Source: Pseudomonas eucalypticola (GTDB taxonomy: Bacteria; Pseudomonadota; Gammaproteobacteria; Pseudomonadales; Pseudomonadaceae). Taken from it: a stretch of DNA of 64,000 nucleotides. The translations under genes and the position numbers were made by a program. A model generated the notes under the pieces. That model was not told where the DNA came from. It made no database searches and saw nothing but the letters and a program-made list of their open reading frames with translations. Numbering within the stretch: the stretch's first letter is position 1; each line of letters opens with the position of its first letter. The stretch lies in the NCBI RefSeq assembly GCF_013374995.1, contig NZ_CP056030.1, positions 1,396,501 to 1,460,500 on the forward strand, in the 5' to 3' direction. Below are positions 14,640 through 30,479 of the stretch, in pieces.

Positions 14640-15566
14640 TCAGGCGGGTTGAGGGGCGGCGAAGGGGGTATCCAGGGGCGCGGTGTCGAACTGGCGCAGC
14701 AGTTCCACCAGGATCTGCGTGGCCGGGCCCAGGGGCTTGTCTTTGTTGGAGTAAAGGTAGAACACCGGATGGCGGCTGCCGCCTTGTTCCAGTGGCAATG
14801 GCTTGAGCACATTTTCCCGCAGCTGCCGTTCGATCAGGTGGCGCGGCAGCCAGGCGAAGCCCAGCCCCGAGCCGACGAACGTCGCGGCCGTGGCCAGGCT
14901 GCCCACTGTCCAGCGCTGCTCGGCGCCCAGCCAGCCGACGTCCTGGGGTTGCCGGCGACCGCTGTCGCGGATCACCACCTGCAACTGGCTTTCCAGGTCC
15001 TGGAAGCTCAAGGGGCGGTTGAGGCGATGCAGGGCATGGTCGGGGTGGGCCACGGCAACGAATTCCACGGCGCTCATTTCGGTGCCCAGGTAGCCAGCGA
15101 TGGCGTACCCGCTGATCGCCAGATCGGCGACGCCCTCGGTCAGCACTTCATCCACCCCGGAGAGTACTTCTTCGCGCAGGCGCACGCGGCAGCCGCGGCT
15201 CTGCGGCATGAACGCGGTGAGCGCGCGCACCAGGCGGGCACTGGGGTAGGCGGCATCGACCACCAGGCGCACCTCGGCCTCCCAGCCTTGCTCCATGTGG
15301 TGGGCAAGGTCTTCCAGCTGGCTGGCGTTTTTCACCAGTTGTCGCGAACGGCGCAGCAGCACGCCGCCCGCTTCGGTGAGCACCGCCTTGCGCCCGTCGA
15401 TGCGCAGCAGCGGCACGCCGAGCTGGTCCTGCATGCGCGCCACGGTATAGCTGACCGACGACTGGGAACGGTGCAAGGCTTCGGCGGCCTGGGCAAACCC
15501 GCCATGGTCGACCACCGCCTGCAGGGTTCGCCACTGATCCAGGGTAACGCGGGGCGCTTTCATCAT
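14640..15566 (-). CDS. LysR family transcriptional regulator
   Basis: This 308-residue protein has an N-terminal winged helix-turn-helix (about residues 5-65, including GGFAQAAEALHRSQSSVSYT) and a C-terminal periplasmic-binding-like effector domain. The gene begins with two ATG codons after an AGGAGCCG ribosome site; the first is used here. It is followed within 13 bp by the alpha/beta hydrolase gene, so it may be co-transcribed with the genes it controls. A dyad in the 47-bp gap to the divergent small gene (15588-15611) is a candidate operator. The effector is unknown. Confidence 0.88.
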   Translation of the reverse strand: MMKAPRVTLDQWRTLQAVVDHGGFAQAAEALHRSQSSVSYTVARMQDQLGVPLLRIDGRKAVLTEAGGVLLRRSRQLVKNASQLEDLAHHMEQGWEAEVRLVVDAAYPSARLVRALTAFMPQSRGCRVRLREEVLSGVDEVLTEGVADLAISGYAIAGYLGTEMSAVEFVAVAHPDHALHRLNRPLSFQDLESQLQVVIRDSGRRQPQDVGWLGAEQRWTVGSLATAATFVGSGLGFAWLPRHLIERQLRENVLKPLPLEQGGSRHPVFYLYSNKDKPLGPATQILVELLRQFDTAPLDTPFAAPQPA

Positions 15567-15587
15567 CGGCTCCTGATGTCCTAAGCT

Positions 15588-15611
15588 GGCAGTTCCATCG
15601 TGGAGACTGCC
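15588..15611. promoter_or_regulatory. Dyad between LysR gene and divergent small gene
   Basis: GGCAGTTCCA (15588-15597) faces TGGAGACTGCC (15601-15611), an inverted repeat with a one-base indel. It occupies most of the short divergent intergenic region, where a LysR-type autoregulatory site would be expected. No experimental site is known to me for this regulator. Confidence 0.4.
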
Positions 15612-15613
15612 GA

Positions 15614-15928
15614 ATGAAAAGTTGCTGTGCGCTCTTGCTGACGCTGTTGCCGTTCACTGCCTTTGCCTACCCCATCGAGGTGGAGAAGCACCTGGCCGGA
15701 ACGGGCATTTCCTTCACTACCGATGACACCGCTGGCGACATGGGCGCCATCACCTTGCGCAATGATGGCCCCCAGGCCGCGCAATGCACGGTGGAGTTCC
15801 GCAACGGGCCGGAAGCGCCACGCGTGCGCAGGGCGAGCGTGGAGCCCGGCAAGAGTGCCACGGTGTTGCAGCGGTTCAATCGGGACATTCTCAAGCTGCG
15901 GCTGAAGGTGACCTGTGAAGCCTCCTAG
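15614..15928 (+). CDS. Small secreted protein of unknown function
   Basis: The 104-residue product begins with a clear signal peptide (MKSCCALLLTLLPFTAFA, cleavage near residue 18). The mature part is a compact beta-rich domain of about 85 residues. Phrases such as GAITLRNDG and CTVEFRNGPEAPRVRRA suggest an immunoglobulin-like fold for a periplasmic protein. Two cysteines in the mature part could form a disulfide. It is divergent from the LysR gene and its reading frame and composition look genuinely coding. Function unknown. Confidence 0.7.
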   Translation: MKSCCALLLTLLPFTAFAYPIEVEKHLAGTGISFTTDDTAGDMGAITLRNDGPQAAQCTVEFRNGPEAPRVRRASVEPGKSATVLQRFNRDILKLRLKVTCEAS

Positions 15929-15964
15929 GGGGGCTTCTGAAAGAGTAGAGGAATGACCGTACAA

Positions 15965-15979
15965 ATCAACTTAGTTGAT
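15965..15979. promoter_or_regulatory. Perfect 15-bp palindrome upstream of the EamA gene
   Basis: ATCAACT-T-AGTTGAT is a perfect inverted repeat with a one-base centre, in an A/T-rich 247-bp gap about 196 bp before the transporter ATG. Its size and symmetry suit a dimeric regulator, possibly the Lrp/AsnC protein encoded just downstream, but it differs from the palindrome at 22460-22474. Confidence 0.4.
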
Positions 15980-16175
15980 GGATTAGTGGTCGTTTTCGAG
16001 ATTTTTTATCAGCTTGGTGTCGCTGGAAGGGGCCGATTCGAGGCTTTCTGCGTTATCGAGACCGAGCGCCGCGCCGGCGGCCCCCCTAGGCAAACACCCC
16101 TGGCCCACACCAATCAGGGATTGCCCACCCCCGCCCAACCCGTTAAGGTCGCCGCCTCTAAGGCAAGGGGCACCC

Positions 16176-17033
16176 ATGGGCTATCTACTTCTGGTTACAT
16201 TGATTCAGGCGTTTTCCTTCAACCTCATCGGCGTGTACCTCGCCGGCCACGTCGACAGCTATTTCGCCGTGGTGGCGCGGGTGGTGATCGCCGGCCTGGT
16301 GTTCATTCCCTTGACCCGCTGGCGGCGGGTGGAGCCCGCCTTTCTGCGCTCGATGCTGGTGATCGGCGCCTTGCAGTTCGGCGTTACCTACGTGTGCCTG
16401 TACCTGAGCTTCCGAGTGCTTACGGTGCCCGAAGTGCTGCTGTTCACCATACTCACGCCCCTGCACGTGACCTTGATCGAAGATGCCCTCAACCGTCGCT
16501 TCAACGCCTGGGCACTGCTGGCGGCCGTGGTGGCGGTGGCGGGTGCGGCCATCATCCGTTTCGACCGGGTGAACCCGGATTTCTTCATGGGCTTTTTGCT
16601 GCTGCAACTGGCGAACTTCACCTATGCTGCTGGCCAGGTGCTATATAAGCGTCTGGTCGCCCGCTACCCCAGTGATGAACCGCAGTACCGTCGCTTCGGT
16701 TATTTCTTCGTTGGCGCGTTGCTGGTGGCCTTGCCGGCGTTCCTGGCGTTCGGTAACCCCCACCACCTGCCGGAAACCTCGCTGCAGTGGGGGGTGTTGG
16801 TGTTTCTCGGTCTGGTGGCCACGGCGTTGGGCATGTACGCATGGAACAAGGGCGCCAGCCAGGTCAGCGCCGCGACGCTGGCCGTGATGAACAACTTGCA
16901 CATCCCCACGGGGTTGCTGCTCAACTTGCTGATCTGGAATCAGAGCGAACCGTTGGGGCGCCTGGCGCTGGGCGGCGTGGTCATCCTGGGGTCGCTGTGG
17001 ATCAGCCGACGCGGTATGGCGACCAGCCGGTAG
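16176..17033 (+). CDS. EamA/DMT family transporter
   Basis: The open frame begins at 16014, but the family N-terminus (MGYLLLVTLIQAFSFNLIGVY) starts at the ATG at 16176, giving 285 residues. It has about ten hydrophobic segments in two EamA repeats, with a basic C-terminus. DMT carriers of this type move amino acids, amines, carboxylates or vitamins, often outward. An Lrp/AsnC gene follows by 118 bp on the same strand, a pairing common for amino-acid exporters. It lies next to the SznF-like operon and could handle a precursor or product, but this is only positional inference. Confidence 0.82.
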   Translation: MGYLLLVTLIQAFSFNLIGVYLAGHVDSYFAVVARVVIAGLVFIPLTRWRRVEPAFLRSMLVIGALQFGVTYVCLYLSFRVLTVPEVLLFTILTPLHVTLIEDALNRRFNAWALLAAVVAVAGAAIIRFDRVNPDFFMGFLLLQLANFTYAAGQVLYKRLVARYPSDEPQYRRFGYFFVGALLVALPAFLAFGNPHHLPETSLQWGVLVFLGLVATALGMYAWNKGASQVSAATLAVMNNLHIPTGLLLNLLIWNQSEPLGRLALGGVVILGSLWISRRGMATSR

Positions 17034-17151
17034 GTGTGTTGTATCGAGTTACCTTTTGCCCGGCGAGCGCACCGCCGCAGCCGTGGCAAAATCGTCAGGG
17101 CCAGCGCCCGTGAAAGTGTGGATCGAGGGGTGTGCCTGCAGGGGCGTGAAG

Positions 17152-17568
17152 ATGGACAAGGTCGACAAGCAGATCATCGCCGCATTGCAAGAAGACGCCA
17201 GGGTCAGCCTGGCGCAACTGTCGCGCCAGGTGCACAAGTCGCGCACGGCGGTGGAGGCTCGCGTCCAGAAGCTGATCGACAATGGCGTGATCCTCGGTTT
17301 CACCATCAACGTGGCCAAGCCCGAGCAATCCGAACAGACGGCGTTCCTGATGCTGACCTTGCATGGCAACGTCTGCCACCTGGTGTTTCCGCAGATTCAC
17401 GCCTACAGCGAAATCATCCATGCCTATTCGCTGTTCGGCGACACCGACATGATGTTGCAGGTCAGCTATCAGCAATTCGAGGAACTGATGGTCCTGAAGG
17501 ACAACCTCATGGCCCTCGAACACGTGGCTGACGTGGTCATCAACCCTGTGCTCAAGGCCTGGCGCTGA
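17152..17568 (+). CDS. Lrp/AsnC family transcriptional regulator
   Basis: This 138-residue protein starts at the ATG at 17152 after AGGGGCG; an in-frame TTG at 17056 is unlikely. An N-terminal helix-turn-helix of Lrp type (VDKQIIAALQEDARVSLAQL, then SRTAVEARVQKL) precedes a RAM/AsnC ligand domain (about residues 65-135). Lrp-type proteins sense amino acids and form octamers. The gene converges tail-to-tail with the SznF-like operon, with three bases between the stop codons. A 15-bp palindrome resembling the E. coli Lrp consensus lies upstream of that operon (22460-22474), so it is a good candidate for its regulator. Confidence 0.87.
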   Translation: MDKVDKQIIAALQEDARVSLAQLSRQVHKSRTAVEARVQKLIDNGVILGFTINVAKPEQSEQTAFLMLTLHGNVCHLVFPQIHAYSEIIHAYSLFGDTDMMLQVSYQQFEELMVLKDNLMALEHVADVVINPVLKAWR

Positions 17569-17571
17569 CCT

Positions 17572-18243
17572 TCAGGCAGCAGCCGATGGCAGGAAGTGGT
17601 GTTGCAGGCCGGGCAGGGTTTCGCGCAGCGTATCCACCAGTTCTTCCAGTACCCGCTGGTTGAAGGCGCGCGGTGTGTCGTGGTGGCCGAGCACTACCGC
17701 TACCAGGCGCGACGAACTGTCGGTCAGGCGGAACTCGTGGGCATCGGCGTCGGTTTTACCGATGCAGGCCAGCAATGCATCGGCACAGGTGTAGACCAGG
17801 TCGCCGGGCGCCACGGTAGCGTCTTTCTTGGCGAACAGCGGGCGAAACTTCATGGGCGTCGCCGCGCGGAACACATGGATGTCTTCAGCCTGTTCATAGG
17901 TATGCACGCCGATGCTCACCCCATGGCGGATGGCGATGGCGTTGTAGGCATCCACTACGTTGTTGATGGAACGCACCCCGCGGGAAATGAAGGCCTTGAG
18001 CAATTTTTCATTGGCCGCGACGGCATTGGGGTAGCCCATTTCCTGCAGCTGGCGCGAGAAACCGTCGTAGATCGGGTTGGTGGCCAGGTTGTCCAGGTGC
18101 GAGGCGACCTGGTTCAGGTTGCGGGTCAGCAGCGGCACATACCCTGGGTCGTTGTTGACCTGGATATTTTCAAGCACCACGGCGCAGGCATTGCCGGCAC
18201 CCAGGGCGGCGGCACACGGGTTGATGATCAGGTTGGCGGTCAT
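17572..18243 (-). CDS. B3/B4 domain protein (phenylalanyl-tRNA synthetase editing-domain family)
   Basis: The product has 223 residues from the ATG at 18243, which follows GGAG at 12 bases; an upstream in-frame ATG at 18261 would add six residues but lacks a ribosome site. Residues about 85-185 match the B3/B4 fold of the PheRS beta subunit: SINNVVDAYNAIAIRHGVS, then a GVHTYE loop, HVFRAAT, PGDLVYTCADALLAC and RLVAVVLGHHDT. In PheRS this domain hydrolyses mischarged tRNA; free-standing relatives are presumed trans-editing factors. It is the last gene of the SznF-like operon and overlaps or abuts the ATP-grasp stop. I infer a self-protection role against mischarging by the cluster product or precursor. 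A catalytic role in the pathway is the alternative. Confidence 0.7.
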   Translation of the reverse strand: MTANLIINPCAAALGAGNACAVVLENIQVNNDPGYVPLLTRNLNQVASHLDNLATNPIYDGFSRQLQEMGYPNAVAANEKLLKAFISRGVRSINNVVDAYNAIAIRHGVSIGVHTYEQAEDIHVFRAATPMKFRPLFAKKDATVAPGDLVYTCADALLACIGKTDADAHEFRLTDSSSRLVAVVLGHHDTPRAFNQRVLEELVDTLRETLPGLQHHFLPSAAA

Positions 18244-18248
18244 GGGTA

Positions 18249-19472
18249 TCACTGGCTCCATAGCAGGGCGCGGATCTGCTCTGCGCTGTGGTCGAGTTGC
18301 CGGGCATCGTCGTGGCTCAGCCAGAACAGACCGGGGCAGGTGGCGAAATCGATGGTGGTGGGCACGTGGGCGCCCGTGGCGACGAAGTAGCGGTGGCCGC
18401 CATAGCCAGGCACCTTGCCAGCCTCCACCATCGGTTCGAAGCCGGGGCCTTCGAAGGTGGACGGGCGTTCGGCCCAGAAGAAGCCGATGCGGCCATGGCG
18501 CAGCTGCCGCGAACAGCCGCTGCCCGCCGGTGCGGGGCGGCCCAGGTAGCTGTCGATGGCCACCGACAACAAGTCGGGTTGGTACACCTGCTGGAACAGG
18601 CGCGGAGCGATACCGCCGTGCAGACGGGCACCGGCCTCGATCATCACCGGGCCCTGCGGCGACCAGATGATTTCCATGTGCAGCGGGCCGTGCAGCACGT
18701 TCAGGGCGGCGGCCGCCTGACGCGCATAATCGAGCAGCGGTTGCAGGTCGGTGTCGTTCGGGTCCAGGGTATCGAGGCTGTCATACACGAACGGGCTGCC
18801 ATTGCGCAGGATCTTGGTGTATCTGCACACCGTGGCGACATGGTAGGTGCCGTTGAACGCCACCAGGTCCACCACGTACTCGGGGCCGCTGATGAAGGGC
18901 TGCACCACGAACCCCAGGTTGACTTCGCCCAGGTCATTGCGCTGGTCCCAGCCCGCGTTCAGCAGGGCCTGTTCCACGGCGGCGCGGCCAGTGGCGAACA
19001 CCACGCCCTGGGTAGCCGCCGAGTTGAGCGGCTTGACCACGTACTGCTGGTCCGGGGCGATGGTCGTGAGCACAGCGGCTATCTGGTCGGGGTGGGTCAC
19101 CAGGTGGCTGTCGATGTGGGCCAGTTCGCGCCGGTCCAGGGCTTGCTGCATGCTGTACTTGTTGCGGCGCTGGTCGCTGGTGGCGGGGCTGTTGCCGCGC
19201 ACCCCCAATGCCTCGGTGAGGTGGTCGGTAAGGTGAATGGCCGTTTCACAGCCGGCGATCACCGCTACCACGCCCAGCGCATCCAGGGTTTCCACCAGCT
19301 CCGGGCGCCAGTCCAGCACCTGGGTGAAGTGTTCGGCGACCAGGTCCTGGGTGAAATGCGCAGGCAGGTCGGGCCGCGAGATGATGGCGATGCAGTTCAG
19401 CCCACGGGCATTGAGCAAGGGGGCGTACAGTTTGCCGGTGGAGAAGGGGTCGACGATAACGATATGGTTCAT
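18249..19472 (-). CDS. ATP-grasp ligase
   Basis: This 407-residue protein has the ATP-grasp architecture. The N-terminal nucleotide-like fold starts IVIVDPFSTGKLYAPLL. The central ATP-binding lobe has lysine in YVVKPLNSAATQG and the ISGPEYVVDLV strand. The Mg-binding region is MIEAGARLHGG, where the usual Asn before the Arg motif is replaced by Gly, as in several L-amino-acid ligase-like proteins. Such enzymes join a carboxylate to an amine through an acyl phosphate, for example forming dipeptides or amides. It lies 12 bp after the MFS gene and just before the B3/B4 gene. In this cluster it probably conjugates an amino-acid product; substrates are unknown. Confidence 0.85.
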   Translation of the reverse strand: MNHIVIVDPFSTGKLYAPLLNARGLNCIAIISRPDLPAHFTQDLVAEHFTQVLDWRPELVETLDALGVVAVIAGCETAIHLTDHLTEALGVRGNSPATSDQRRNKYSMQQALDRRELAHIDSHLVTHPDQIAAVLTTIAPDQQYVVKPLNSAATQGVVFATGRAAVEQALLNAGWDQRNDLGEVNLGFVVQPFISGPEYVVDLVAFNGTYHVATVCRYTKILRNGSPFVYDSLDTLDPNDTDLQPLLDYARQAAAALNVLHGPLHMEIIWSPQGPVMIEAGARLHGGIAPRLFQQVYQPDLLSVAIDSYLGRPAPAGSGCSRQLRHGRIGFFWAERPSTFEGPGFEPMVEAGKVPGYGGHRYFVATGAHVPTTIDFATCPGLFWLSHDDARQLDHSAEQIRALLWSQ

Positions 19473-19484
19473 GGGGCGGTTTTC

Positions 19485-20660
19485 CTACTTGGCCACGATG
19501 ACAGGGCGTGGTGCCGGCCAGAGCGTGCGCAGCAATACGGCGCTGCCCAGCAGCACGGCAGAAGCGACCATCAGTACGCGAGCGCCTTCCATGCCGAGCA
19601 GTGCCTGGGTGGTGAACAGGGTCAGCAACATGGGCGCGGCGCCGCTGACCAGCAGATAGAACAGTGAGCTGCGTGCGGCGATGACATCGGCAGTGTGCTC
19701 GTCCGGGGCGGCTTCGATAAGCTGGCGGCGCAGCTCGATACGCAGGCTGTTGATGCAGAAGCCGAGCACGCCGGCGGCGGCCATCATGACCCCTTCATGG
19801 GTGAAATAGACCATGGCCACGTCGGCCGCGATGATCAACGCCACGGCACCGTAGCTGCCCAGGCGCACTCGCGGCAGCACCGCCGCGCAGAAGGCGCCGA
19901 GCCCCGCCAGGCCACTGGCGGTGCCGAACAGGGTGGCGTTCCAGCCATTGAGTTTCTGGAAGACGATGGGCACCAGGCTGTTGAACGCGCCGATATGGAA
20001 CCCGATCATGCTCAGCACCACGATCAGCAGGTACAGCTGCGGCCCCAGGCTGGCCGAAGGCGACTGCGGCGCCGGCGCCGCTTGCCCGGCCTGGGCAGGC
20101 GTGGCGGCTACCAGGGCGATGGCGGCCAGCGAAACGATGGCGGCGATACCGATGATCTGCAGGGTTGCGTTGACCGCGAAGCGGTCGACGATGACCCCGC
20201 CCAACAAGGCGCCGCCAAACGCGCCGATTTGGATGGCGGTCTGCATCAGCCGCGCCGAGGTGTCGCTGGTGGTGTGCCCCGCGAGTACCAGTCGGGTGTT
20301 CTGCGATTCCAGGGTGCTGATGGTGAAGTAGTCGGTCACCCCCACCAGGAACGCAATGCCCAGGAAGCCAATGGGCAGCGCCGCGGCCTGGGTGAACGAA
20401 AGCGCCACGATGCTGGCGAACACCACCAGGCGGATATACAGCAAGCGGCGCATGCTCATCTGCACCACCCGGTCGCGGCTCAGGTATTGCTCCAGGGCAT
20501 AGGGCACCACCGTGGCGATGCACAACGTGACGCCCACCAGAAAGGTGGAGCCGGTGGTTTGCAGGCCGAACCACACCATGGCGATGACAATGGCCATGTC
20601 CAGGCCAGTGAACAGCGTGACGATGGCGTAGAACGCAGGTAGCGTGGTTTTGTTGTTCAT
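19485..20660 (-). CDS. MFS transporter, probable exporter of the SznF-like cluster
   Basis: This 391-residue membrane protein has about 12 hydrophobic segments, an acidic/basic loop RDRVVQMSMRRL between early helices, and a central loop (TPAQAGQAAPAPQSPSA, near residue 190) between the two six-helix halves, as in the major facilitator superfamily. Its ATG overlaps the Rieske gene stop by four bases (ATGA), showing tight co-translation. A dedicated MFS carrier within a biosynthetic operon usually exports the product and gives resistance; this role is inferred from context. Confidence 0.85.
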   Translation of the reverse strand: MNNKTTLPAFYAIVTLFTGLDMAIVIAMVWFGLQTTGSTFLVGVTLCIATVVPYALEQYLSRDRVVQMSMRRLLYIRLVVFASIVALSFTQAAALPIGFLGIAFLVGVTDYFTISTLESQNTRLVLAGHTTSDTSARLMQTAIQIGAFGGALLGGVIVDRFAVNATLQIIGIAAIVSLAAIALVAATPAQAGQAAPAPQSPSASLGPQLYLLIVVLSMIGFHIGAFNSLVPIVFQKLNGWNATLFGTASGLAGLGAFCAAVLPRVRLGSYGAVALIIAADVAMVYFTHEGVMMAAAGVLGFCINSLRIELRRQLIEAAPDEHTADVIAARSSLFYLLVSGAAPMLLTLFTTQALLGMEGARVLMVASAVLLGSAVLLRTLWPAPRPVIVAK

Positions 20661-20980
20661 GACGTTTCACCGTGGCGAATGATGCGCAGCAATGGGGTGC
20701 AGTCGTGGTCCGTGGGGATCACGGTGCTCAGGCGCTTGCCCACCCGCACGGTGGGCAGCGCCTTCTTCTCCAGGTTGCACAGCGGATAGGCGTTGTCGTG
20801 CCAGGGGCAGATCACCCGTTCACCGTTGTCGGACGCCTGGCCCATGTGCAGCGGGCCGCCGCGATGGGGGCACAGCGTGGGCAACAGGTAGGTGGACTGG
20901 GCATGCTGGTTGAGGAAATAGGTCTTGCCGCCCACCGCCAGGTAGGGGGTGTGGTCGGCATCCAGGGTCACGGATTTCAT
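20657..20980 (-). CDS. Rieske [2Fe-2S] ferredoxin
   Basis: The protein has 107 residues and consists of a single Rieske domain. Cluster ligands are Cys37 and His39 in CPHRGG and Cys58 and His61 in CPWHDN. There is no oxygenase catalytic domain, so it is a free electron carrier like the ferredoxins of multicomponent oxygenases. It sits 12 bp after the diiron/cupin gene and overlaps the MFS gene by four bases. The simplest reading is that it reduces the diiron centre of its neighbour, as T4moC does for toluene 4-monooxygenase. No ferredoxin reductase is in the operon, so a general one would be needed. Confidence 0.88.
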   Translation of the reverse strand: MKSVTLDADHTPYLAVGGKTYFLNQHAQSTYLLPTLCPHRGGPLHMGQASDNGERVICPWHDNAYPLCNLEKKALPTVRVGKRLSTVIPTDHDCTPLLRIIRHGETS

Positions 20981-20992
20981 CGTGGCAGGCCC

Positions 20993-22372
20993 TCAGAGCG
21001 CAGTGACGGTGTAGGTGCAGGACGGGCTGGTGACCTGGGTACCATGCAGCATTCCCTTGGGAATGATGATGCCTTCCCCGGCGCTGAGCTTGACCGACAG
21101 CTGCGGGGTGACCACGAAGTCCAGTTCACCTTCTTCCACCCAGAACAGCTCATTGCCGGCATGGGTGTGCAGCACCGATACCTCGCCCTGGGCCTCGGTG
21201 AAGCGCGCATCGGCGGGCTTGCTGGCGTGCAGCATGGCGGCACGCGCGCGGTGGGCGTCCAGTTCGTCGTGCCACTTGATGTGGGCGTAGAGTTCCTCGT
21301 CGGCCTGGTCCTGCAGCAGCCTGAACTCTTCGAAACCGCGAATGATGTCCGGGATCACCTGCTTGCCGTATTGGCGGATCATGGGAATGATCAAGCGCTG
21401 CAAGGCCATGCGCCCGTGGTGCACGTCGATGTGCTGATGCTCGTCGAAATACTCGGTCGACACCTCGTCGCCGAAGATGTCGCGAATGGCCCGTGACTGG
21501 TGGCCAGTGGTCAGTGCCAGGGACGCTTCGGTGTAGTACATGGCGCCGATGTAGCGGAAGAACTCGCCATGGTTGGCCGAGATATAGTGGAAATAGTTGG
21601 TCAGTGACAGGGAGCTGGCGGTGTAGAACTGCCAGTAATGGTGCACCTGGCTGCTCAGCCCGGCCTGTTCGAGCAGGCCCTCGAAAATGCTGCTGTGCTT
21701 TTTCTTGTCGATGCCGTAGCCATATTCATCGATGAGGATCTTGAACAGCTCGCTGGTGTGCGCGCCGGCATTGCCCAGCACGTTGCGCGCCATGGCCGAG
21801 GCTTCGCTGAGGAAATCACCGGCGCACTGGATCAGGAAAAAACGCGCCGCCCGGCGCGGGTCATGGCTGCCGGTCAGTACCTGGTGCAACCGCGATGGCG
21901 CCTTGGCCACGTCGTCGAGCACCTTGTCGGTGTGGGCGATAAACGACTCCTCGCACCAGGCGCCGTTGATATGCACCTCTTCCTTCAGCCAGCCGTAGGT
22001 GCACTGCTCCAGGCGTGGTCGTACCTGTTTGCCCAAGGCCATGTGCGCCGGCTCGTAGAAGCCCTTGAAGGCTTTCATGTCGAGTTTGGCGGGCGGCTTG
22101 GGCAGGAACACCAGGTCCTGTTCATAGATGTTCAGCAACAGGCGCTGGGCCAGCAAATGCTCGGGCGTGGCGAGGTCCGCGCTGGTCAGTTGCGTGCGCA
22201 GCAGGGTCTCGGTGACGTCCTGGGGGCGCAACGGGCGCTGGTACGGGTTCGCGGTGTAGAACGAGCGCGGCTGGGCAAACGCCGGCGCAGCGCTGAAGCC
22301 TCGAAGGGCCTGGAAGTCTTCGGCTGGCAGGGTATCGATGGCTGCGGTGGAGGTGCGGGTTATCCCTAACAT
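20993..22372 (-). CDS. SznF-like heme-oxygenase-like diiron enzyme with C-terminal cupin
   Basis: This 459-residue fusion has an N-terminal helical region (about 1-130), a heme-oxygenase-like diiron domain (about 131-370) and a C-terminal cupin (about 385-459). Candidate diiron ligands are Glu190, Glu216, His226, Glu282, His312, Asp316 and His319. The cupin has HTHAGNE (His402, His404, Glu408) and GEGIIIPKGMLH (His443). Domain order, length and ligand spacing fit SznF/StzF (about 471 residues), the streptozotocin enzyme that N-hydroxylates a methylarginine guanidine and rearranges it to an N-nitrosourea. The substrate here is unknown: no N-methyltransferase gene is nearby. It is the first gene of a five-gene operon, with a possible -10 (TATAGC, 22417-22412) and a palindrome at 22460-22474 upstream. 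Confidence 0.85.
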   Translation of the reverse strand: MLGITRTSTAAIDTLPAEDFQALRGFSAAPAFAQPRSFYTANPYQRPLRPQDVTETLLRTQLTSADLATPEHLLAQRLLLNIYEQDLVFLPKPPAKLDMKAFKGFYEPAHMALGKQVRPRLEQCTYGWLKEEVHINGAWCEESFIAHTDKVLDDVAKAPSRLHQVLTGSHDPRRAARFFLIQCAGDFLSEASAMARNVLGNAGAHTSELFKILIDEYGYGIDKKKHSSIFEGLLEQAGLSSQVHHYWQFYTASSLSLTNYFHYISANHGEFFRYIGAMYYTEASLALTTGHQSRAIRDIFGDEVSTEYFDEHQHIDVHHGRMALQRLIIPMIRQYGKQVIPDIIRGFEEFRLLQDQADEELYAHIKWHDELDAHRARAAMLHASKPADARFTEAQGEVSVLHTHAGNELFWVEEGELDFVVTPQLSVKLSAGEGIIIPKGMLHGTQVTSPSCTYTVTAL

Positions 22373-22459
22373 TGTCTGACGCCTATGGTCGTGAGATCGA
22401 TGGGCGTGAATGCTATAAGTCGGGATGGATGATGGGCAGTTTGAAAAAAACGCTTTGGG

Positions 22460-22474
22460 TAGTGAAATTCACTA
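22460..22474. promoter_or_regulatory. Lrp-like palindrome upstream of the SznF-like operon
   Basis: TAGTGAA-A-TTCACTA is a perfect 15-bp inverted repeat with a one-base centre, 88-102 bases before the first operon ATG. It agrees at 12 of 15 positions with the E. coli Lrp consensus YAGHAWATTWTDCTR as I recall it. Further out, CGCTTT on the left and AAAGCG on the right extend the symmetry with a GGG/GGGT interruption. The Lrp/AsnC gene at the far end of the operon is the natural candidate to bind here. Confidence 0.55.
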
Positions 22475-22545
22475 AAGCGGGGGCGGGTGTGATACGGAAG
22501 GCGTAGCGGCGGCCTCACGGCCGCTGCAGGTGCCCGGGCCAGCGG

Positions 22546-23802
22546 CTATCGCGCCGTGATCATTCCCCGGCGAAAATCCGTCCCGCTAGGCTGCTGATAC
22601 AGGCTCAAGCCGAACTCCGGCATCACCGCCAGCAGGTAATCGAAGATATCCCCCTGAATCCGCTCATAGTCCGCCCACACCGTGGTCCGCGTGAAGCAGT
22701 AGATTTCCAGCGGCACGCCCTGGGCGCCGGTTTCCATCTGGCGGACCATGCAGGTCATGTTCGGCTGGATGTCGGGGTGGCTTTTCAGGTAGGCCAGGGC
22801 GAATGCGCGGAAGGTCCCGAGGTTGGTCAGGTTGCGGCGGTTGGCGGCCAGGTCGGCGACTTCGCCCTGGGCTTCGTTCCAGCTGTGCAGCTCGGCCTGC
22901 TTGCGGCCCACGTAGTCGGTCAGCAGGCGCACCTGGGTGAGGCGCTGCTGTTCGTCGGCGTTCAGGAAGCGCACGCCGCTGGCGTCGATGTGCAGGCTGC
23001 GCTTGATGCGGCGGCCGCCGGACTGCTGCATGCCGCGCCAGTTCTTGAACGACTCGGACATTAACCGCCAGGTGGGAATGCTGACGATGGTCTTGTCGAA
23101 ATTCTGCACCTTGACCGTGTGCAGGGTGATGTCCACCACGTCGCCGTCGGCGCCCACCTGGGGCATTTCGATCCAGTCGCCCACGCGCAGCATGTCGTTG
23201 CTGGTCAACTGCACGCTGGCCACGAACGATAGCAAGGTGTCCTTGTACACCAGCAGGATGACCGCCGACATGGCCCCCAGCCCCGACAGCAGCAACAACG
23301 GCGAGCGATCGATCAGGGTCGCGACGACGATGATGGCGGCGAAGATGTACAGCACCATCTTGGCCAATTGCACGTAGCCCTTGATGGAGCGCGTGCGGGC
23401 GTGTTCGGTGCGCGCGTAGATGTCCAGCAGGGCGTTGAGCAGGGCGCCCATGGCCAGGGTCAGGAACAGGATGGTGACCGCCAGCGCGACATTGCCGATG
23501 AAGTGCGCGGCTTTTTCACTCAGCACCGGCACCAGGGTGAGGCCGAACTGGATCACCAGCGACGGCACCGTCTGGGCGAGGCGGTGGAAAACCTTGTTGT
23601 GCAACAGGTCATTGAGCCAGTGCAGCGCGGGTTGGCGCCCCAGCAGCTTGACGCCGTGCAGGATCAGGAAGCGCGCCACGCGGCCCAGCACCAGGGCGAT
23701 GGTCAGCAACAGCGCCAGGCTCAGGCCAGCACGCAGTAACGGGTGGTTGTCCAGTGAACTCCAGTGGGCCTGGGCCTGGAGCCAGAAGTCTCGAATATCC
23801 AT
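22546..23802 (-). CDS. ybdG: Mechanosensitive channel, YbdG/MscM type
   Basis: The product has 418 residues from the ATG at 23802; an upstream in-frame ATG at 23916 would add atypical sequence. It has four to five N-terminal membrane helices, then the MscS pore helix and beta domain (SGLGAMSAVILLVYKDTLL, VGDWIEMPQVGADGDVVDI, IPTWRLMSESFKNW) and a long cytoplasmic C-terminus. E. coli YbdG has nearly the same length (415) and contributes the MscM mini-conductance in response to osmotic downshock. The stop codon is 173 bp from the SznF-like gene, with a GC-rich hairpin in the gap. Confidence 0.85.
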   Translation of the reverse strand: MDIRDFWLQAQAHWSSLDNHPLLRAGLSLALLLTIALVLGRVARFLILHGVKLLGRQPALHWLNDLLHNKVFHRLAQTVPSLVIQFGLTLVPVLSEKAAHFIGNVALAVTILFLTLAMGALLNALLDIYARTEHARTRSIKGYVQLAKMVLYIFAAIIVVATLIDRSPLLLLSGLGAMSAVILLVYKDTLLSFVASVQLTSNDMLRVGDWIEMPQVGADGDVVDITLHTVKVQNFDKTIVSIPTWRLMSESFKNWRGMQQSGGRRIKRSLHIDASGVRFLNADEQQRLTQVRLLTDYVGRKQAELHSWNEAQGEVADLAANRRNLTNLGTFRAFALAYLKSHPDIQPNMTCMVRQMETGAQGVPLEIYCFTRTTVWADYERIQGDIFDYLLAVMPEFGLSLYQQPSGTDFRRGMITAR

Positions 23803-23965
23803 GGGTTGCAGCCGATGTTCAGTGGGTGATGAACGGCGCATTAGAGCGCATTGCTCGGGCAAAAAGGCAAATAGTGCGTTACCAGACGTAAAGAAATTCG
23901 GCTTATTGCCGCACAAACCGTTACGCTATGCAGTTGAATTTATGTACTTCGCCGAGGTAACACCC

Positions 23966-25303
23966 GTGTTTTCCCAATTCGCCTTGCATGAACGCCTGCT
24001 CAAAGCCGTGGCCGAGCTGAACTTTGTCGAGCCTACCCCGGTGCAGGTAGCGGCCATCCCGCTGGCAGTGCAAGGACGTGACCTGCGGGTGACGGCGCAG
24101 ACCGGCAGCGGCAAGACCGCGGCATTCGTGCTGCCGATCCTCAACCGCCTGATCGGCCCGGCCAAGGTGCGGGTGGACATTCGCGCCATCATCCTGCTGC
24201 CAACCCGCGAGCTGGCCCAGCAGACCCTGAAGGAAGTGGAGCGTTTCTCCCAGTTCACCTTCATCAAGTCCGGCCTGATCACCGGCGGTGAAGACTTCAA
24301 GGTCCAGGCCGCCATGCTGCGCAAGGTGCCGGACATCCTGATCGGCACCCCGGGCCGCCTGTTGGAACACCTGAACGCCGGCAACCTGGACCTGAGCAAG
24401 GTCGAGGTCATGGTGCTGGACGAAGCCGACCGCATGCTGGACATGGGCTTCGCCGAAGACGTCACGCGCCTGAGCGACGAGTGCAAGCACCGCGAGCAGA
24501 CCCTGCTGTTCTCCGCCACCACCGGCGGCGCCGGCCTGCGCGACATGATGGGCAAAGTGCTGAAAGACCCCGAGCACCTGCTGATCAACAACGTCAGCCA
24601 GCTGGCCGAAGGCACCCGCCAGCAGATCGTCACCGCTGACCACAACGTGCACAAGGAACAGATTCTCAACTGGCTGCTGGCCAACGAGACGTATCAGAAG
24701 GCCATTGTCTTCACCAACACCCGTGCCATGGCCGACCGCATCTACGGCCGTCTGGTGGCCCAGGACTACAAAGCCTTCGTGCTGCACGGCGACAAGGACC
24801 AGAAGGACCGCAAGCTGGCCATCGACCGCCTGAAGCAAGGTGGGGTGAAGATTCTGGTGGCCACCGACGTTGCCGCTCGCGGCCTGGACGTGGATGGCCT
24901 GGACCTGGTGGTGAACTTCGACATGCCGCGCAGCGGCGACGAGTACGTGCACCGCATCGGCCGTACCGGCCGTGCCGGTAACGAAGGCCTGGCCATCTCG
25001 CTGATCTGCCACGGTGACTGGAACCTGATGTCCAGCATCGAGCGCTACCTGAAGCAGAAGTTCGAGCGCCGGGTGATCAAGGAAGTCAAAGGCACCTATG
25101 CGGGGCCGAAGAAGGTCAAGGCGTCCGGCAAAGCCGTGGGCGTGAAGAAGAAAAAGACCGACGCCAAGAAAGGCGACAAGAAAACCGCCGCCAAGGGCCC
25201 AACCAAGCGCAAGACGGTCAACAAGCCCAAGGCCGAGCAACTGGTGAGCGCCGACGGCATGGCGCCGCTCAAGCGCCGCAAGCCAGCGCCTACCGCGGAA
25301 TAA
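23966..25303 (+). CDS. DEAD-box ATP-dependent RNA helicase
   Basis: The GTG at 23966 is preferred as start because GAGG (23954-23957) sits eight bases upstream and the protein then begins with the family N-terminus (VFSQFALHERLLKAVAEL). The 445 residues contain the Q motif (near Gln27), AQTGSGKT at 44-51, PTRELAQQ, TPGR, DEAD at 152-155, SAT and HRIGRTGR at 329-336. A lysine-rich tail (from about 395) should bind RNA, as in RhlE/SrmB-type helicases that act in ribosome assembly or RNA decay. The exact subfamily was not decided. Confidence 0.9.
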   Translation: MFSQFALHERLLKAVAELNFVEPTPVQVAAIPLAVQGRDLRVTAQTGSGKTAAFVLPILNRLIGPAKVRVDIRAIILLPTRELAQQTLKEVERFSQFTFIKSGLITGGEDFKVQAAMLRKVPDILIGTPGRLLEHLNAGNLDLSKVEVMVLDEADRMLDMGFAEDVTRLSDECKHREQTLLFSATTGGAGLRDMMGKVLKDPEHLLINNVSQLAEGTRQQIVTADHNVHKEQILNWLLANETYQKAIVFTNTRAMADRIYGRLVAQDYKAFVLHGDKDQKDRKLAIDRLKQGGVKILVATDVAARGLDVDGLDLVVNFDMPRSGDEYVHRIGRTGRAGNEGLAISLICHGDWNLMSSIERYLKQKFERRVIKEVKGTYAGPKKVKASGKAVGVKKKKTDAKKGDKKTAAKGPTKRKTVNKPKAEQLVSADGMAPLKRRKPAPTAE

Positions 25304-26475: not shown

Positions 26476-26724
26476 TCAATGCCTGGTGATCTGCTGCAGG
26501 AACCGCCACAGGTCATTGGCCGTCACGGCCTGCTCCAGCAACTTGTCTTCCTCGCTGGTGAAGGCAGTTAGCCCGTACTCGTCCTCTAAACGAGTAATCA
26601 GTTCCATGATGTCTTTCTTGTCGAGCCCAAGGTCCTCAAGCGCGACATCGTCGTCGAAGTCACCGTCGCCGATGTAGTCGGTGATGAAATTGTGCACGGT
26701 CTTGCGAATACCGAACCGGGGCAT
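26476..26724 (-). CDS. Acyl-carrier-like protein lacking the phosphopantetheine serine
   Basis: The frame opens at 26754, but AGGAG lies seven to eight bases before the ATG at 26724, giving 82 residues. The four-helix ACP pattern is visible: acidic loop DGDFDDDVALEDLGL, helix KKDIMELITRLEDEYGL matching ACP helix II, and a final helix TANDLWRFLQQI. The position that holds the modified serine in the DSL motif is lysine (LDKKD), so 4'-phosphopantetheine cannot be attached there. It is preceded by a second ACP-like gene 10 bp upstream. The pair may be structural or regulatory rather than acyl carriers. Confidence 0.65.
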   Translation of the reverse strand: MPRFGIRKTVHNFITDYIGDGDFDDDVALEDLGLDKKDIMELITRLEDEYGLTAFTSEEDKLLEQAVTANDLWRFLQQITRH

Positions 26725-26734
26725 GGCCGTGCTC

Positions 26735-26962
26735 CTAGGCTGAAGCGCAGTCATGGCGGGTCATTTCCTGAATGATACCGCTCAAGTCATTGATGGTGCT
26801 GACCCTGGGCAGTACACGAGCGGGGTCCAGATGCACCTGGAACACGCGCTCCAGGCGATCGAACAGTTCCAGCAGATCGAGGCAGGGGGCCTCTGTGGCC
26901 TGGGCGGCCAGTTGTCGCTGGATGGTGTGGTGAATCTGCAGCTGGATGTCTGTTCTGTTCAT
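26735..26962 (-). CDS. Second acyl-carrier-like protein, cysteine at the serine position
   Basis: The product has 75 residues with GAGG seven bases before the ATG at 26962. It aligns by eye with ACP helix II and beyond: APCLDLLELFDRLERVF, where the DSL motif of true ACPs reads PCL, so serine is replaced by cysteine. The region ending VSTINDLSGIIQEM matches the last ACP helix. It is the first gene of a two-gene unit with the lysine-containing ACP-like protein. No condensing, ligase or transferase gene is adjacent. Confidence 0.6.
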   Translation of the reverse strand: MNRTDIQLQIHHTIQRQLAAQATEAPCLDLLELFDRLERVFQVHLDPARVLPRVSTINDLSGIIQEMTRHDCASA

Positions 26963-27007
26963 GGCAGCCCTCGAATGCGAGTAAAGCTTAGTTCGGCAAT
27001 TCGTTTG

Positions 27008-27074
27008 CGGCTGTCACGATAACAGCGGTCAATCCTTGTTGGTGACAGCCGCTCCAGGGGACGCGGCTGTTTTT
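27008..27074 (+). terminator. Orphan plus-strand terminator with an overlapping alternative hairpin
   Basis: Hairpin B is ACAGCCGC (27045-27052) with GCGGCTGT (27063-27070), followed by TTTTT (27070-27074): a normal intrinsic terminator reading rightward. Hairpin A is CGGCTGTCAC (27008-27017) with GTGACAGCCG (27042-27051), a perfect 10-bp stem that shares its right arm with hairpin B, so the two exclude each other. Both flanking genes are on the minus strand and have no T-run here in their direction. This suggests an unannotated plus-strand transcript, perhaps a small RNA. Confidence 0.5.
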
Positions 27075-27081
27075 CAAAAGC

Positions 27082-28461
27082 TTATGCCAGTTTTGCCACG
27101 ATTGCCGGGCGGCGTGACAAAAGGCTGACAACCACAAAGCTCACCAGGCCGACCGCGAGGCTGTAATAGATGGGTGTGTTGGCGTCCAGGCCATCCTTGA
27201 ACATGAACACCAGGGCGGTCATGAAACCCAGTGTCATGCTGCAAATTGCCCCAGAGGTCGTCGCACGTTTCCAGAAAATGGCCCCTATCAGCGGAATCAG
27301 CATGCCGCCCACCAGCAGGTTGTACGCCAGGGTCAGGGCGCTGATCACGTCGTTGACCACCAGGGCAATGCCCAGCACTGCCACACCGGTCAGCAGGGTA
27401 AACAGACGGTTGATGCCCAGGCTCGACTGCTTACCGCCCCGCAACTTGGGCAGCAGGTCTTCGGTCAGTACCGTGGAAGCGGCCAGCAGGCCGGCGCTGG
27501 CGGTGGACATCATGGCCGCCAGGGCGGCAGCAATCACCAGGCCGCGCAGGCCGTCAGGCAAGCTGGCTTTGACGATGGCGGCGAAGGCATTGTTGACGTT
27601 GTCGAGGTCCGGCAGTAGCACATGGGCAGCCATGCCGATCAGCGCGCAGGCCAGGCCGTAGAAAATGCAGTAGATACCTGCGGTGGTACCGGCGTACACC
27701 GCCACTTTCTCGCTTTTGGCAGTGAACACCCGTTGCCAGATATCCTGGCCAATGAGGATGCCGAAAAAGTAGATCATGAAGTAGGTGATGATGGTGTCCC
27801 AGCCGATGCTGGTGAAGCTGAAACTGGAGGCCGGCAACTTCGCCACCAGCTCGTCCCAGCCACCCACCCGGTACAGGCAGATGGGCAACAGGATGAACAT
27901 CAGGCCCACGGTCTTGATCACGAACTGGACGATGTCGGTCAGGGTCAGCGACCACATGCCGCCGATGGTCGAGTACACCACCACCACGCCACCGCCCAGC
28001 ACCACCGACAGCCAGAACGGCAGGCCGAACAGCACCTGCAGCACCGTGCCGATGGCCAGTATCGACGTCACGCCGATCATTAAGGCATACGCCAGCATGA
28101 TCACCGCGCTGGCCTGGCGAGCCATGGGGTTGTAGCGCTTTTCCAGAACCTGTGTCACGGTGAAGATTTTCAGTTTCAGCAGCGGTTTGGCCAGGAACAG
28201 GTTGAGGGCGACGATGCCCAGGCCCAGGGCCGCGCACAGCCAGAAACCGGAAATGCCGTGCACGTAGCCCAGGCGCACGGTACCGACAGTGCTCGCGCCG
28301 CCCAGCACGGTGGCGGCCATGGTGCCCATGTACAGCGAAGGGCCCAGGTTGCGGCCGGCCACGAGGTAATCTTCATGGGTTTTTGCCTTGCGCATGCCGT
28401 ACCAGCCGAGCAGCAGCATGCCTGCCGCGTAGATCGCGACAACGAAAATATCCAAAGCCAT
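27082..28461 (-). CDS. Sodium:solute symporter (SSS family)
   Basis: This 459-residue protein has about 13 hydrophobic segments. Early segments DYLVAGRNLGPSLYMGTMAAT and GGASTVGTVRLGY are typical of the SSS (PutP/PanF) family, as is the sodium-site helix SAGLLAASTVLTEDL. It is the last gene of the guanidinobutyrate cluster (NCS1 permease, NTF2-like protein, GbuA). The same order exists in P. aeruginosa (PA1418-PA1422, from memory). It may import a guanidino compound or a breakdown product, but the substrate is not shown. The gap to the upstream permease gene is 54 bp. Confidence 0.87.
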   Translation of the reverse strand: MALDIFVVAIYAAGMLLLGWYGMRKAKTHEDYLVAGRNLGPSLYMGTMAATVLGGASTVGTVRLGYVHGISGFWLCAALGLGIVALNLFLAKPLLKLKIFTVTQVLEKRYNPMARQASAVIMLAYALMIGVTSILAIGTVLQVLFGLPFWLSVVLGGGVVVVYSTIGGMWSLTLTDIVQFVIKTVGLMFILLPICLYRVGGWDELVAKLPASSFSFTSIGWDTIITYFMIYFFGILIGQDIWQRVFTAKSEKVAVYAGTTAGIYCIFYGLACALIGMAAHVLLPDLDNVNNAFAAIVKASLPDGLRGLVIAAALAAMMSTASAGLLAASTVLTEDLLPKLRGGKQSSLGINRLFTLLTGVAVLGIALVVNDVISALTLAYNLLVGGMLIPLIGAIFWKRATTSGAICSMTLGFMTALVFMFKDGLDANTPIYYSLAVGLVSFVVVSLLSRRPAIVAKLA

Positions 28462-28515
28462 GGGGCATCTCTCCAGGTGTTTTTCTTATTGGGGTACTGC
28501 CTGCGGGCGCCGTGA

Positions 28516-30012
28516 TCAGACGGTGGCGCCGTTGGGCACGGCGGTGCTACCGCGCGCACCGTTTGGGCCATACACCGCGGCCGGTTCCGGCACCAGCTTG
28601 AGCAGCACCAGGTACACCACGGCCGCCAGCGCGAGGGTAACCGGCAAGCTGATGTCGATGCCGCCGGCCAGGTTGCCCAGCGGCCCCACGAACTGGCCCG
28701 GCAGGTTGACGAAGCACAAGCCCACCAGCGCGCTGGGAATCCAGGCGCCGAGGCCGCGCCAGTTCCAGCCATGGTGGAACCAGTAGCGTCCGCCTTGTTC
28801 ACCGCGGGTGAACACCTGCAGGTCATCGGGGCAATACCAGCCGCGGCGCATCAGCAGGCCAATCAGCATGATCACCATCCACGGCGTGGTGCAGGTGATG
28901 ATCAGCACCACGAAGGTCGACACGCTCTGAACCAAGTTGAAGGCGAAACGGCCGATGAAGATGAACGCAATGGACATCACGCCGATCAGCAACGTGGCTT
29001 GTACCCGCGACAGCAGCCGTGGGAACACGCTGGACATGTCCAGGCCGGTGCCATACAGCGCAGTGGTGCCGGTGGACATGCCGCCGATGACCGCCAGCAG
29101 GCACACCGGCAGGAAGAACCAACCCGGCGATACCGCCAGCAGGCCGCCCACGTAGTTGTTATTGGCGATGTAGTCCGGCGCCTGGGTGGCGACGATGGTC
29201 GCGGTGGCCAGGCCGAACAGCAAGGGCAGCAGCGTGGCCAGTTGGGCGCAGATGACCGCGCCCATGATCCGCGATCTGGCGGTAGTGCGCGGAATATAGC
29301 GCGACCAGTCACCCAGGAAGGCGCCGAACGAGATCGGGTTGCTCATGGCCACCAGCGATGCGCCGATGAACGCTGCCCAGAAACCGGCCTGGCCGTGGCT
29401 GACACTACCGGCATAGTTGACGTCGAACGCCCCGGCGAATGCGGCGATGCCCGACAGGAACAGGGCGCTGGCGGTCCATACGGCGATCTTGTTGACCCAC
29501 AGCATGAACCGGAAACCATAGATGCATACCGCCAGTACCAGCAGTGCGAACAGGCCATAGGTCAGGCCAAGGCTCAGGTCGGTTTCCGGCAAGCCGATCA
29601 GGCGCTTGGCGCCGCCGACCAGGGCGTCCCCCGAGCTCCACACCGACAGCGAGAAGAAGGCGATGGCGGTGAGCAGCGACAGGAACGAGCCGACGATGCG
29701 CCCGTGCACGCCGAAGTGGGCACCGGAAGACACGGCGTTGTTGGTACCGTTGATGGCACCGAACAACCCCATGGGCGCGAGGATCACCGCGCCCACCAGT
29801 GTGCCTAGCAGAACGGCCACCAGGCCGGCCTGGAAAGACAGGCCGAACAGCACGGGAAAACTCCCCAGCACGGCGGTGGAGAAGGTATTGGCACCGCCGA
29901 AAATCAGGCGGAACAGGTCCAGGGGTTTGGCGTTCCTTTCATGGTCGGGAATCTGTTCGACCCCGAAGGTTTCTATCTGGCTAATCTGGGACGTACTGTT
30001 GTTATTGTTCAT
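28516..30012 (-). CDS. NCS1 family (purine/cytosine permease type) transporter
   Basis: This 498-residue protein has twelve predicted membrane helices. The N-terminal region HERNAKPLDLFRLIFGGANT, followed by MGLFGAINGTNNAVSSGAHFGV, is characteristic of the NCS1 (codB/purine-cytosine permease) family. The N-terminus is unusually rich in Asn and Ser (MNNNNSTSQIS). It lies in the gbu cluster, 49 bp after the NTF2-like gene, and probably brings in a nitrogen-rich substrate for GbuA or a related pathway. Substrate unproven. Confidence 0.87.
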   Translation of the reverse strand: MNNNNSTSQISQIETFGVEQIPDHERNAKPLDLFRLIFGGANTFSTAVLGSFPVLFGLSFQAGLVAVLLGTLVGAVILAPMGLFGAINGTNNAVSSGAHFGVHGRIVGSFLSLLTAIAFFSLSVWSSGDALVGGAKRLIGLPETDLSLGLTYGLFALLVLAVCIYGFRFMLWVNKIAVWTASALFLSGIAAFAGAFDVNYAGSVSHGQAGFWAAFIGASLVAMSNPISFGAFLGDWSRYIPRTTARSRIMGAVICAQLATLLPLLFGLATATIVATQAPDYIANNNYVGGLLAVSPGWFFLPVCLLAVIGGMSTGTTALYGTGLDMSSVFPRLLSRVQATLLIGVMSIAFIFIGRFAFNLVQSVSTFVVLIITCTTPWMVIMLIGLLMRRGWYCPDDLQVFTRGEQGGRYWFHHGWNWRGLGAWIPSALVGLCFVNLPGQFVGPLGNLAGGIDISLPVTLALAAVVYLVLLKLVPEPAAVYGPNGARGSTAVPNGATV

Positions 30013-30061
30013 GATCTGCTCCGATCATTGCGGGCGCCCGTCTATGCGGGCGTCGCGGCGG

Positions 30062-30469
30062 TCAAGGGGAGGGCAGTGTCGTGGGTGCAGCGGATAAGTG
30101 TTCGTGGCAGGCCAGCCAGCGGCCTTCTTGTTGTTGGCGAAACACAATGGTTTCGCGCTCCTGGCTAAAGTACAGCTCCCCTTGCATGCGCAACTGTGTC
30201 GCCACGTCATGCATGAATATCGCCACGTCGCCCTGCAGGCTGACCACGGCGTTGCTCGACCTGCACTCCAGCACCTCGAAGCCATCGTCGCGCCGCCAGC
30301 CATCCCAGACCTCACGGTAGGCGTCGCGGGACAGCAGCGGTTGCTCCAGGGTGTGGAACACAAAGCTGGCATCGGCCGTGAACGCCCCGAAGTAGGCTTC
30401 ACGGTCGTTGCTGGCGAAGGCCGTGACCAGTTCGGCGGCGGCTTGTAATACCTGTTCGCGCGCGTTCAT
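30062..30469 (-). CDS. NTF2-like (SnoaL/SgcJ type) protein
   Basis: The long frame runs to 30565, but the real start is the ATG at 30469, eight bases after GAGG; an ATG at 30475 is too close to that site. The 135-residue product has the cone-shaped NTF2 pattern: helix REQVLQAAAELVTAFASND, then FTADASFVFHTLE, and beta strands VAIFMHDVATQ and ERETIVFRQQQEGRW. Members include ketosteroid isomerases and many proteins of unknown activity. It is located ten bases after gbuA. A role in guanidino compound metabolism is inferred from position only. Confidence 0.75.
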   Translation of the reverse strand: MNAREQVLQAAAELVTAFASNDREAYFGAFTADASFVFHTLEQPLLSRDAYREVWDGWRRDDGFEVLECRSSNAVVSLQGDVAIFMHDVATQLRMQGELYFSQERETIVFRQQQEGRWLACHEHLSAAPTTLPSP

Positions 30470-30479
30470 GGCCATGTCC

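Follow-up and report, generated by a model that had tools for sequence, protein, structure and literature searches.

The 64,000-nucleotide stretch of Pseudomonas eucalypticola analysed here (contig NZ_CP056030.1, positions 1,396,501 to 1,460,500; hereafter the window) carries an operon of five tightly packed minus-strand open reading frames (ORFs) at 17572–22372, the first of which encodes a homologue of SznF that joins a heme-oxygenase-like diiron (HDO) domain to a cupin. A preliminary description of the sequence had listed these five genes, and the ORF coordinates confirmed them; Pfam found every domain for which it had suggested profile searches (HDO, cupin, Rieske, ATP-grasp and B3_4). That parts list missed two further elements of the unit, a convergent gene for an Lrp/AsnC-family regulator and an upstream palindrome. 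We refer to the five operon genes plus the regulator gene as the module and propose, with a probability of about 0.5, that it serves biosynthesis, export and immunity for an arginine-derived peptide, with self-protection acting at translation. The features are as follows.

17152–17568, plus strand: Lrp/AsnC-family regulator, 138 residues from ATG 17152 (longer starts are possible), convergent with the B3/4 gene.
17572–18261, minus strand: standalone B3/4 protein, 229 residues (223 from ATG 18243); B3_4 (Pfam), CtdA-like fold; putative tRNA(Arg) deacylase for self-protection.
18249–19472, minus strand: ATP-grasp ligase, 407 residues; ATP-grasp_4 and ATP-grasp_3 (Pfam), with the fold of L-amino-acid (dipeptide) ligases.
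19485–20660, minus strand: MFS-type transporter, 391 residues; MFS_1 (Pfam, below cut-off); putative exporter.
20657–20980, minus strand: small Rieske [2Fe-2S] ferredoxin, 107 residues, motif CxH...CxxH; Rieske (Pfam); putative electron donor.
20993–22372, minus strand: HDO-cupin enzyme, SznF homologue, 459 residues; Haem_oxygenas_2 and Cupin_2 (Pfam).
22410–22417, minus strand: conserved TATAGCAT, resembling a promoter −10 element by eye, from comparison of upstream regions.
22460–22474, no strand assigned: 15-bp palindrome TAGTGAAATTCACTA, candidate operator of the Lrp/AsnC regulator.

In operon order, 12-bp gaps separate the HDO-cupin gene from the Rieske gene and the MFS gene from the ATP-grasp gene; the Rieske and MFS genes overlap by 4 bp, and the ATP-grasp and B3/4 genes by 13 bp, the latter overlap becoming a 5-bp gap if the B3/4 gene starts at ATG 18243. 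All 22 module-bearing genomes among 398 Pseudomonas sampled keep the five genes together, and because their order is identical in every one it is not a product of chance. Base composition gave no foreign signal (64.2% GC in the module versus 63.1% in the window), and NCBIfam had a specific name for none of the four operon proteins other than the ATP-grasp protein. The long ORFs on the plus strand across from the operon, such as 18288–19667, were discounted as shadow frames of GC-rich coding sequence. Literature searches returned no description of this gene set, although the sources, available in part, may mention it among the 426 SznF homologues listed in PMC11177257 or the HDO/ATP-grasp clusters listed in PMC13185094.

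The upstream regions of the module have in common TAGTGAAWTTCACTA, two 7-bp inverted arms flanking a single base, which is found within 2 mismatches upstream of the operon in all 23 distinct module loci and is exact in 17. These loci comprise the 22 genomes plus P. veronii (L039); L040 and L128 are one record, as are L041 and L124, and each pair enters the count a single time; L037 and L038, which repeat L020 and L021, were left out. Twenty single-base shuffles of the window contained no copy with 0 or 1 mismatch. Among 17 module genomes searched throughout, 13 have one exact copy each, which is at the operon in 12; in G170 the exact copy lies away from the module (C1:215316–215330) and the operon copy has 2 mismatches. 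The remaining four have only inexact copies at the operon. As the Lrp/AsnC protein is the sole regulator travelling with the module, it is likely to bind this palindrome. A consensus scan found no sigma-70 consensus promoter. The Lrp query used for locus comparison began upstream of the likely start; the 'DEAD' landmark query of that comparison, an out-of-frame translation containing seven stops, marked position alone and supports none of the conclusions.

We detected the HDO-cupin enzyme in 18 of 298 Pseudomonas genomes in a first sample and in 23 of 398 in a larger, overlapping one, with the complete six-gene module in 22 of the latter; the 23rd carrier, G250, is of another type. Of the 22 modules, 17 occupy a site between mscS and eamA (in L025 just the eamA flank was visible, and in L032 eamA is 2.0 kb away) and five lie elsewhere, with the Lrp gene still present. 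An mscS match (76–84% identity) was found in 10 of 15 genomes lacking the enzyme; eamA follows mscS directly in eight, with no Lrp or module gene between them, and falls outside the flank examined in two. These empty sites indicate that the segment from the Lrp gene to the HDO gene is one mobile or losable unit. In a class sample, none of 368 other genomes had an HDO-cupin match at E 1e-30, and a phylum sample of 397 yielded four matches, three of them Pseudomonas already seen and the other G1026. In the window itself, about 4 kb beyond the module, minus-strand genes at 26476–31430 comprise two small ORFs without Pfam match, a sodium/solute symporter, an NCS1-type permease, a SnoaL-like protein and an agmatinase-family protein.

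Residues 41–456 of the HDO-cupin enzyme align with residues 40–461 of crystallised SznF (E ~2e-107; 180 of 415 aligned positions identical), with the HDO domain and C-terminal cupin in one chain. All seven diiron ligands (E190, E216, H226, E282, H312, D316 and H319), all three cupin histidines (H402, H404 and H443) and a tyrosine (Y454) are present, matching SznF E189 (which we take to be a diiron ligand), E215, H225, E281, H311, D315 and H318, then H407, H409 and H448, and Y459. Most of these SznF residues are named as essential in the available part of PMC11705231, and the available part of PMC13108848 describes SznF as a 3-His/4-carboxylate enzyme. The claimed SznF architecture thus extends over the full length of the protein and all ten metal ligands, and alignment, ligands and tree place it with SznF and not with unrelated diiron enzymes; with the five genes also kept together in relatives, neither of the two outcomes named as refuting the preliminary description occurred. 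The enzyme would N-hydroxylate a guanidine and probably form an N–N bond. The metal-site residues and tyrosine are kept across 130 aligned homologues with a single D-to-N change as the sole exception. In this set, picked by similarity to the query, the cupin histidines and tyrosine are retained in 130 of 130, which argues for retained cupin chemistry and against a pathway that ends at N-hydroxylation, with the cupin doing other work. Such a pathway, yielding an N-hydroxyarginine dipeptide as a canavanine-like antimetabolite, would fit the complete HDO ligands and give the most direct explanation of a tRNA(Arg) editor, but we judge it improbable. Separately, the HDO relative on a Rhizobium leguminosarum plasmid (L047:5770–7310), whose gene adjoins a Rieske gene, retains every diiron ligand but lacks the cupin ligands.

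The SznF homologues GrbD and ChmM have been linked to arginine-derived N–N groups and implicated in the formation of graminine in metallophores (PMC11177257 and PMC11705231, as far as the available text goes). By analogy, a single enzyme might turn arginine into the diazeniumdiolate amino acid graminine, which the ligase would cap to give a very small metal-binding peptide; the intact cupin site and the fact that unmethylated arginine is the graminine precursor both suit this idea. However, in the same partial sources the enzymes associated with non-ribosomal peptide synthetases (NRPSs) mostly lack the HDO ligands and are accompanied by NRPS genes and a heme enzyme of the YqcI/YcgG type, whereas the HDO ligands of the module enzyme are intact, and a Pfam scan and locus comparison revealed no NRPS or receptor gene in the module. 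Nor was there a YqcI/YcgG (PF08892) match in 16 of the 17 module genomes, the one in G170 lying away from the module. A graminine-type product is therefore unlikely in our estimation.

In a FastTree phylogeny of 130 proteins (SznF entered as residues 40–461; homologues taken as the best 120 of 516 matches, with 7996 candidates scored), SznF groups with three methyltransferase/Ada loci (local support 0.966) and the module enzymes occupy a different branch. One of these loci, in G250 (L036:5229–17095), contains genes for a DNA-damage oxygenase, an HhH-GPD glycosylase, an Ada-type protein, the HDO-cupin enzyme, a Rieske protein, a PRMT_C methyltransferase, an MFS protein, hydrolases, an ATP-grasp protein and a flavin/2Fe-2S reductase. 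The others, on plasmids of Pantoea dispersa (L046:7769–14216) and Methylobacterium indicum (L045:395–12053), carry related methyltransferase, Ada and ATP-grasp genes; the distance between ada and the HDO gene is ~0.15 kb for L046, 0.6 kb for L036 and 7.5 kb for L045. All three share the HDO-cupin, Rieske and ATP-grasp genes with the module (and a transporter in L036 and L046), but they have a PRMT_C-type or related methyltransferase plus Ada and no B3/4, the reverse of the module. These three clusters, of which two are plasmid-borne, are candidates for streptozotocin-like methylators in hosts other than Streptomyces.

Neither a methyltransferase gene nor ada occurs in any of the 23 module loci. 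Genome-wide, a search with the L036 methyltransferase, rather than SznE itself, as query gave no match at 1e-5 in 16 of the 17 module genomes and a partial one (33%) in G171. That the module has no SznE-like methyltransferase counts against a streptozotocin-type methylated nitrosourea, for which N-methylarginine would have to be supplied from elsewhere; SznF, the closest characterised enzyme, does use N-methylarginine, but with no ada near the module and the module enzyme apart from SznF in the tree, we consider this product very improbable. Relative to the streptozotocin system, whose three-part protein SznF/StzF shares its ten metal ligands and tyrosine with the module enzyme, the module lacks the arginine methyltransferase and adds ATP-grasp, B3/4 and Lrp/AsnC genes. 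Among other relatives, a Gloeothece locus has only HDO-cupin, Rieske, MFS and ATP-grasp genes, and Azospirillaceae-type loci (L044, L048, L080–L082 and, in part, L083) combine HDO-cupin and Rieske genes with an amino-acid permease in place of ligase and exporter, with Lrp in five of six and neither ATP-grasp nor B3/4.

In all 31 loci examined the gene immediately after the HDO gene encodes the Rieske protein, an adjacency that fits the electron-carrier role assigned to this protein in the preliminary description. The ligation role also proposed there agrees with the structural comparison: the ATP-grasp model (predicted local distance difference test score of 92.5) has as its top six Foldseek rows the L-amino-acid ligases BL00235, RizA and BacD/YwfE, followed by PurK-like proteins and biotin carboxylases. 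Fold and sequence both relate the protein to L-amino-acid ligases, with matches to PRK07206 (264.7 bits; NCBIfam cut-off 302) and DdaF (139.5 bits; cut-off 840) that are below cut-off; carboxylate–amine ligation would be the corresponding chemistry. An HDO enzyme paired with ATP-grasp ligation in a small Pseudomonas pathway recalls the mangotoxin cluster mbo. In the available part of PMC13185094, mbo comprises the HDO protein MboA, described as an acetylenase with no cupin fusion reported, and two ATP-grasp ligases, and at least 25 types of HDO/ATP-grasp cluster are recognised.

The best fold match of the B3/4 protein, over 218 residues, is CtdA, a canavanyl-tRNA(Arg) deacylase that is likewise a standalone B3/4 fold. 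The gene is present in all 23 module loci, co-directional with the biosynthetic operon and at its end. It is the only standalone B3/4 match in the window's genome, the one other match being a 795-residue frame of PheT size. CtdA of Pseudomonas canavaninivorans is encoded beside canavanine breakdown genes, whereas the module B3/4 gene adjoins a biosynthetic operon. The preliminary description had listed the tRNA-editing-type domain as one of the supplied parts, whereas the evidence points to self-protection. A literature search found no paper on trans-editing as self-resistance in a biosynthetic gene cluster. A close CtdA orthologue in the same-order genome G1032 (L085:3027–3719, minus strand; E 1e-91 to 9f7e) makes a useful reference. 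Riboswitch control, as for some CtdA genes, was considered and rejected: an Rfam scan of 15500–24500 gave one sub-threshold match, RF01151, which was taken as chance.

The genomes show the gene content and order, their conservation, the intact metal sites, the regulator site and the boundaries of the insertion; chemistry, export and immunity are deduced from these. In the mechanism we propose, the Lrp/AsnC regulator would sense an amino acid and control the operon through its palindrome. The Rieske protein would pass electrons to the diiron site, where the guanidine nitrogens of a guanidino amino acid that carries no methyl group, in the simplest case L-arginine, would be hydroxylated, and the cupin iron would rearrange the dihydroxy intermediate to an N–N product, a des-methyl N-nitroso or diazeniumdiolate amino acid. 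The ATP-grasp ligase would then join this to another amino acid and the MFS protein would export the peptide. B3/4 would protect the producer by deacylating tRNA(Arg) that ArgRS had mischarged with an arginine analogue, either hydroxylated or nitrosated, and so keep the analogue out of the producer's proteins. CtdA acts on canavanine-type substrates, and N-hydroxylated arginine is similar to canavanine.

Several observations weigh against this proposal. A des-methyl N-nitrosourea may, on chemical reasoning, be unstable, and the MFS_1 match (31.0 bits) falls just below the Pfam cut-off of 33.4 bits. Identity between B3/4 and CtdA is 16–19%, clear sequence membership in CtdA was not found (E 0.96 and 0.026; hhalign probability 71% against the CtdA orthologue in L085), and a profile search scored PheRS beta (24.8 bits) above the CtdA entries (18.5 and 17.1 bits). 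Most telling of all, among methyltransferase-free relatives B3/4 was not found near the HDO gene in the Gloeothece locus, in six Azospirillaceae-type loci or in one Rhizobium locus, which would confine any immunity link to the Pseudomonas branch. The low similarity to CtdA and the functioning of related clusters without B3/4 would also suit a protein that either guards against arginine analogues from outside, as CtdA itself protects against plant canavanine, or catalyses a pathway step. Its invariable place at the end of the operon and its standing as the genome's sole standalone B3/4 argue otherwise, and we regard such a role as rather unlikely.

Taken more broadly, the biosynthesis, export and immunity reading suggests that self-protection in SznF-family clusters might take two forms according to the product: clusters with the arginine methyltransferase would make a DNA-methylating product and carry Ada-type repair, and those without it would make an arginine mimic and carry a freestanding tRNA editor, which in Pseudomonas would make proofreading of mischarged tRNA(Arg) a built-in immunity. 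We offer this generalisation tentatively, at somewhat below even odds; only three methyltransferase/Ada loci enter the contrast, and the Methylobacterium ada gene lies at the far end of the distances given above.

The module is carried by about 1 in 20 sampled pseudomonads. If the proposal is correct, a single 5-kb unit would combine arginine N–N chemistry with translational proofreading and a minimal peptide pathway that needs no NRPS. Its Rieske protein is a candidate for the electron carrier encoded alongside SznF-type enzymes, and, if the two self-protections do track the product, B3/4 versus Ada would be a sequence marker predicting whether the product of a cluster of this family mimics arginine or methylates DNA.

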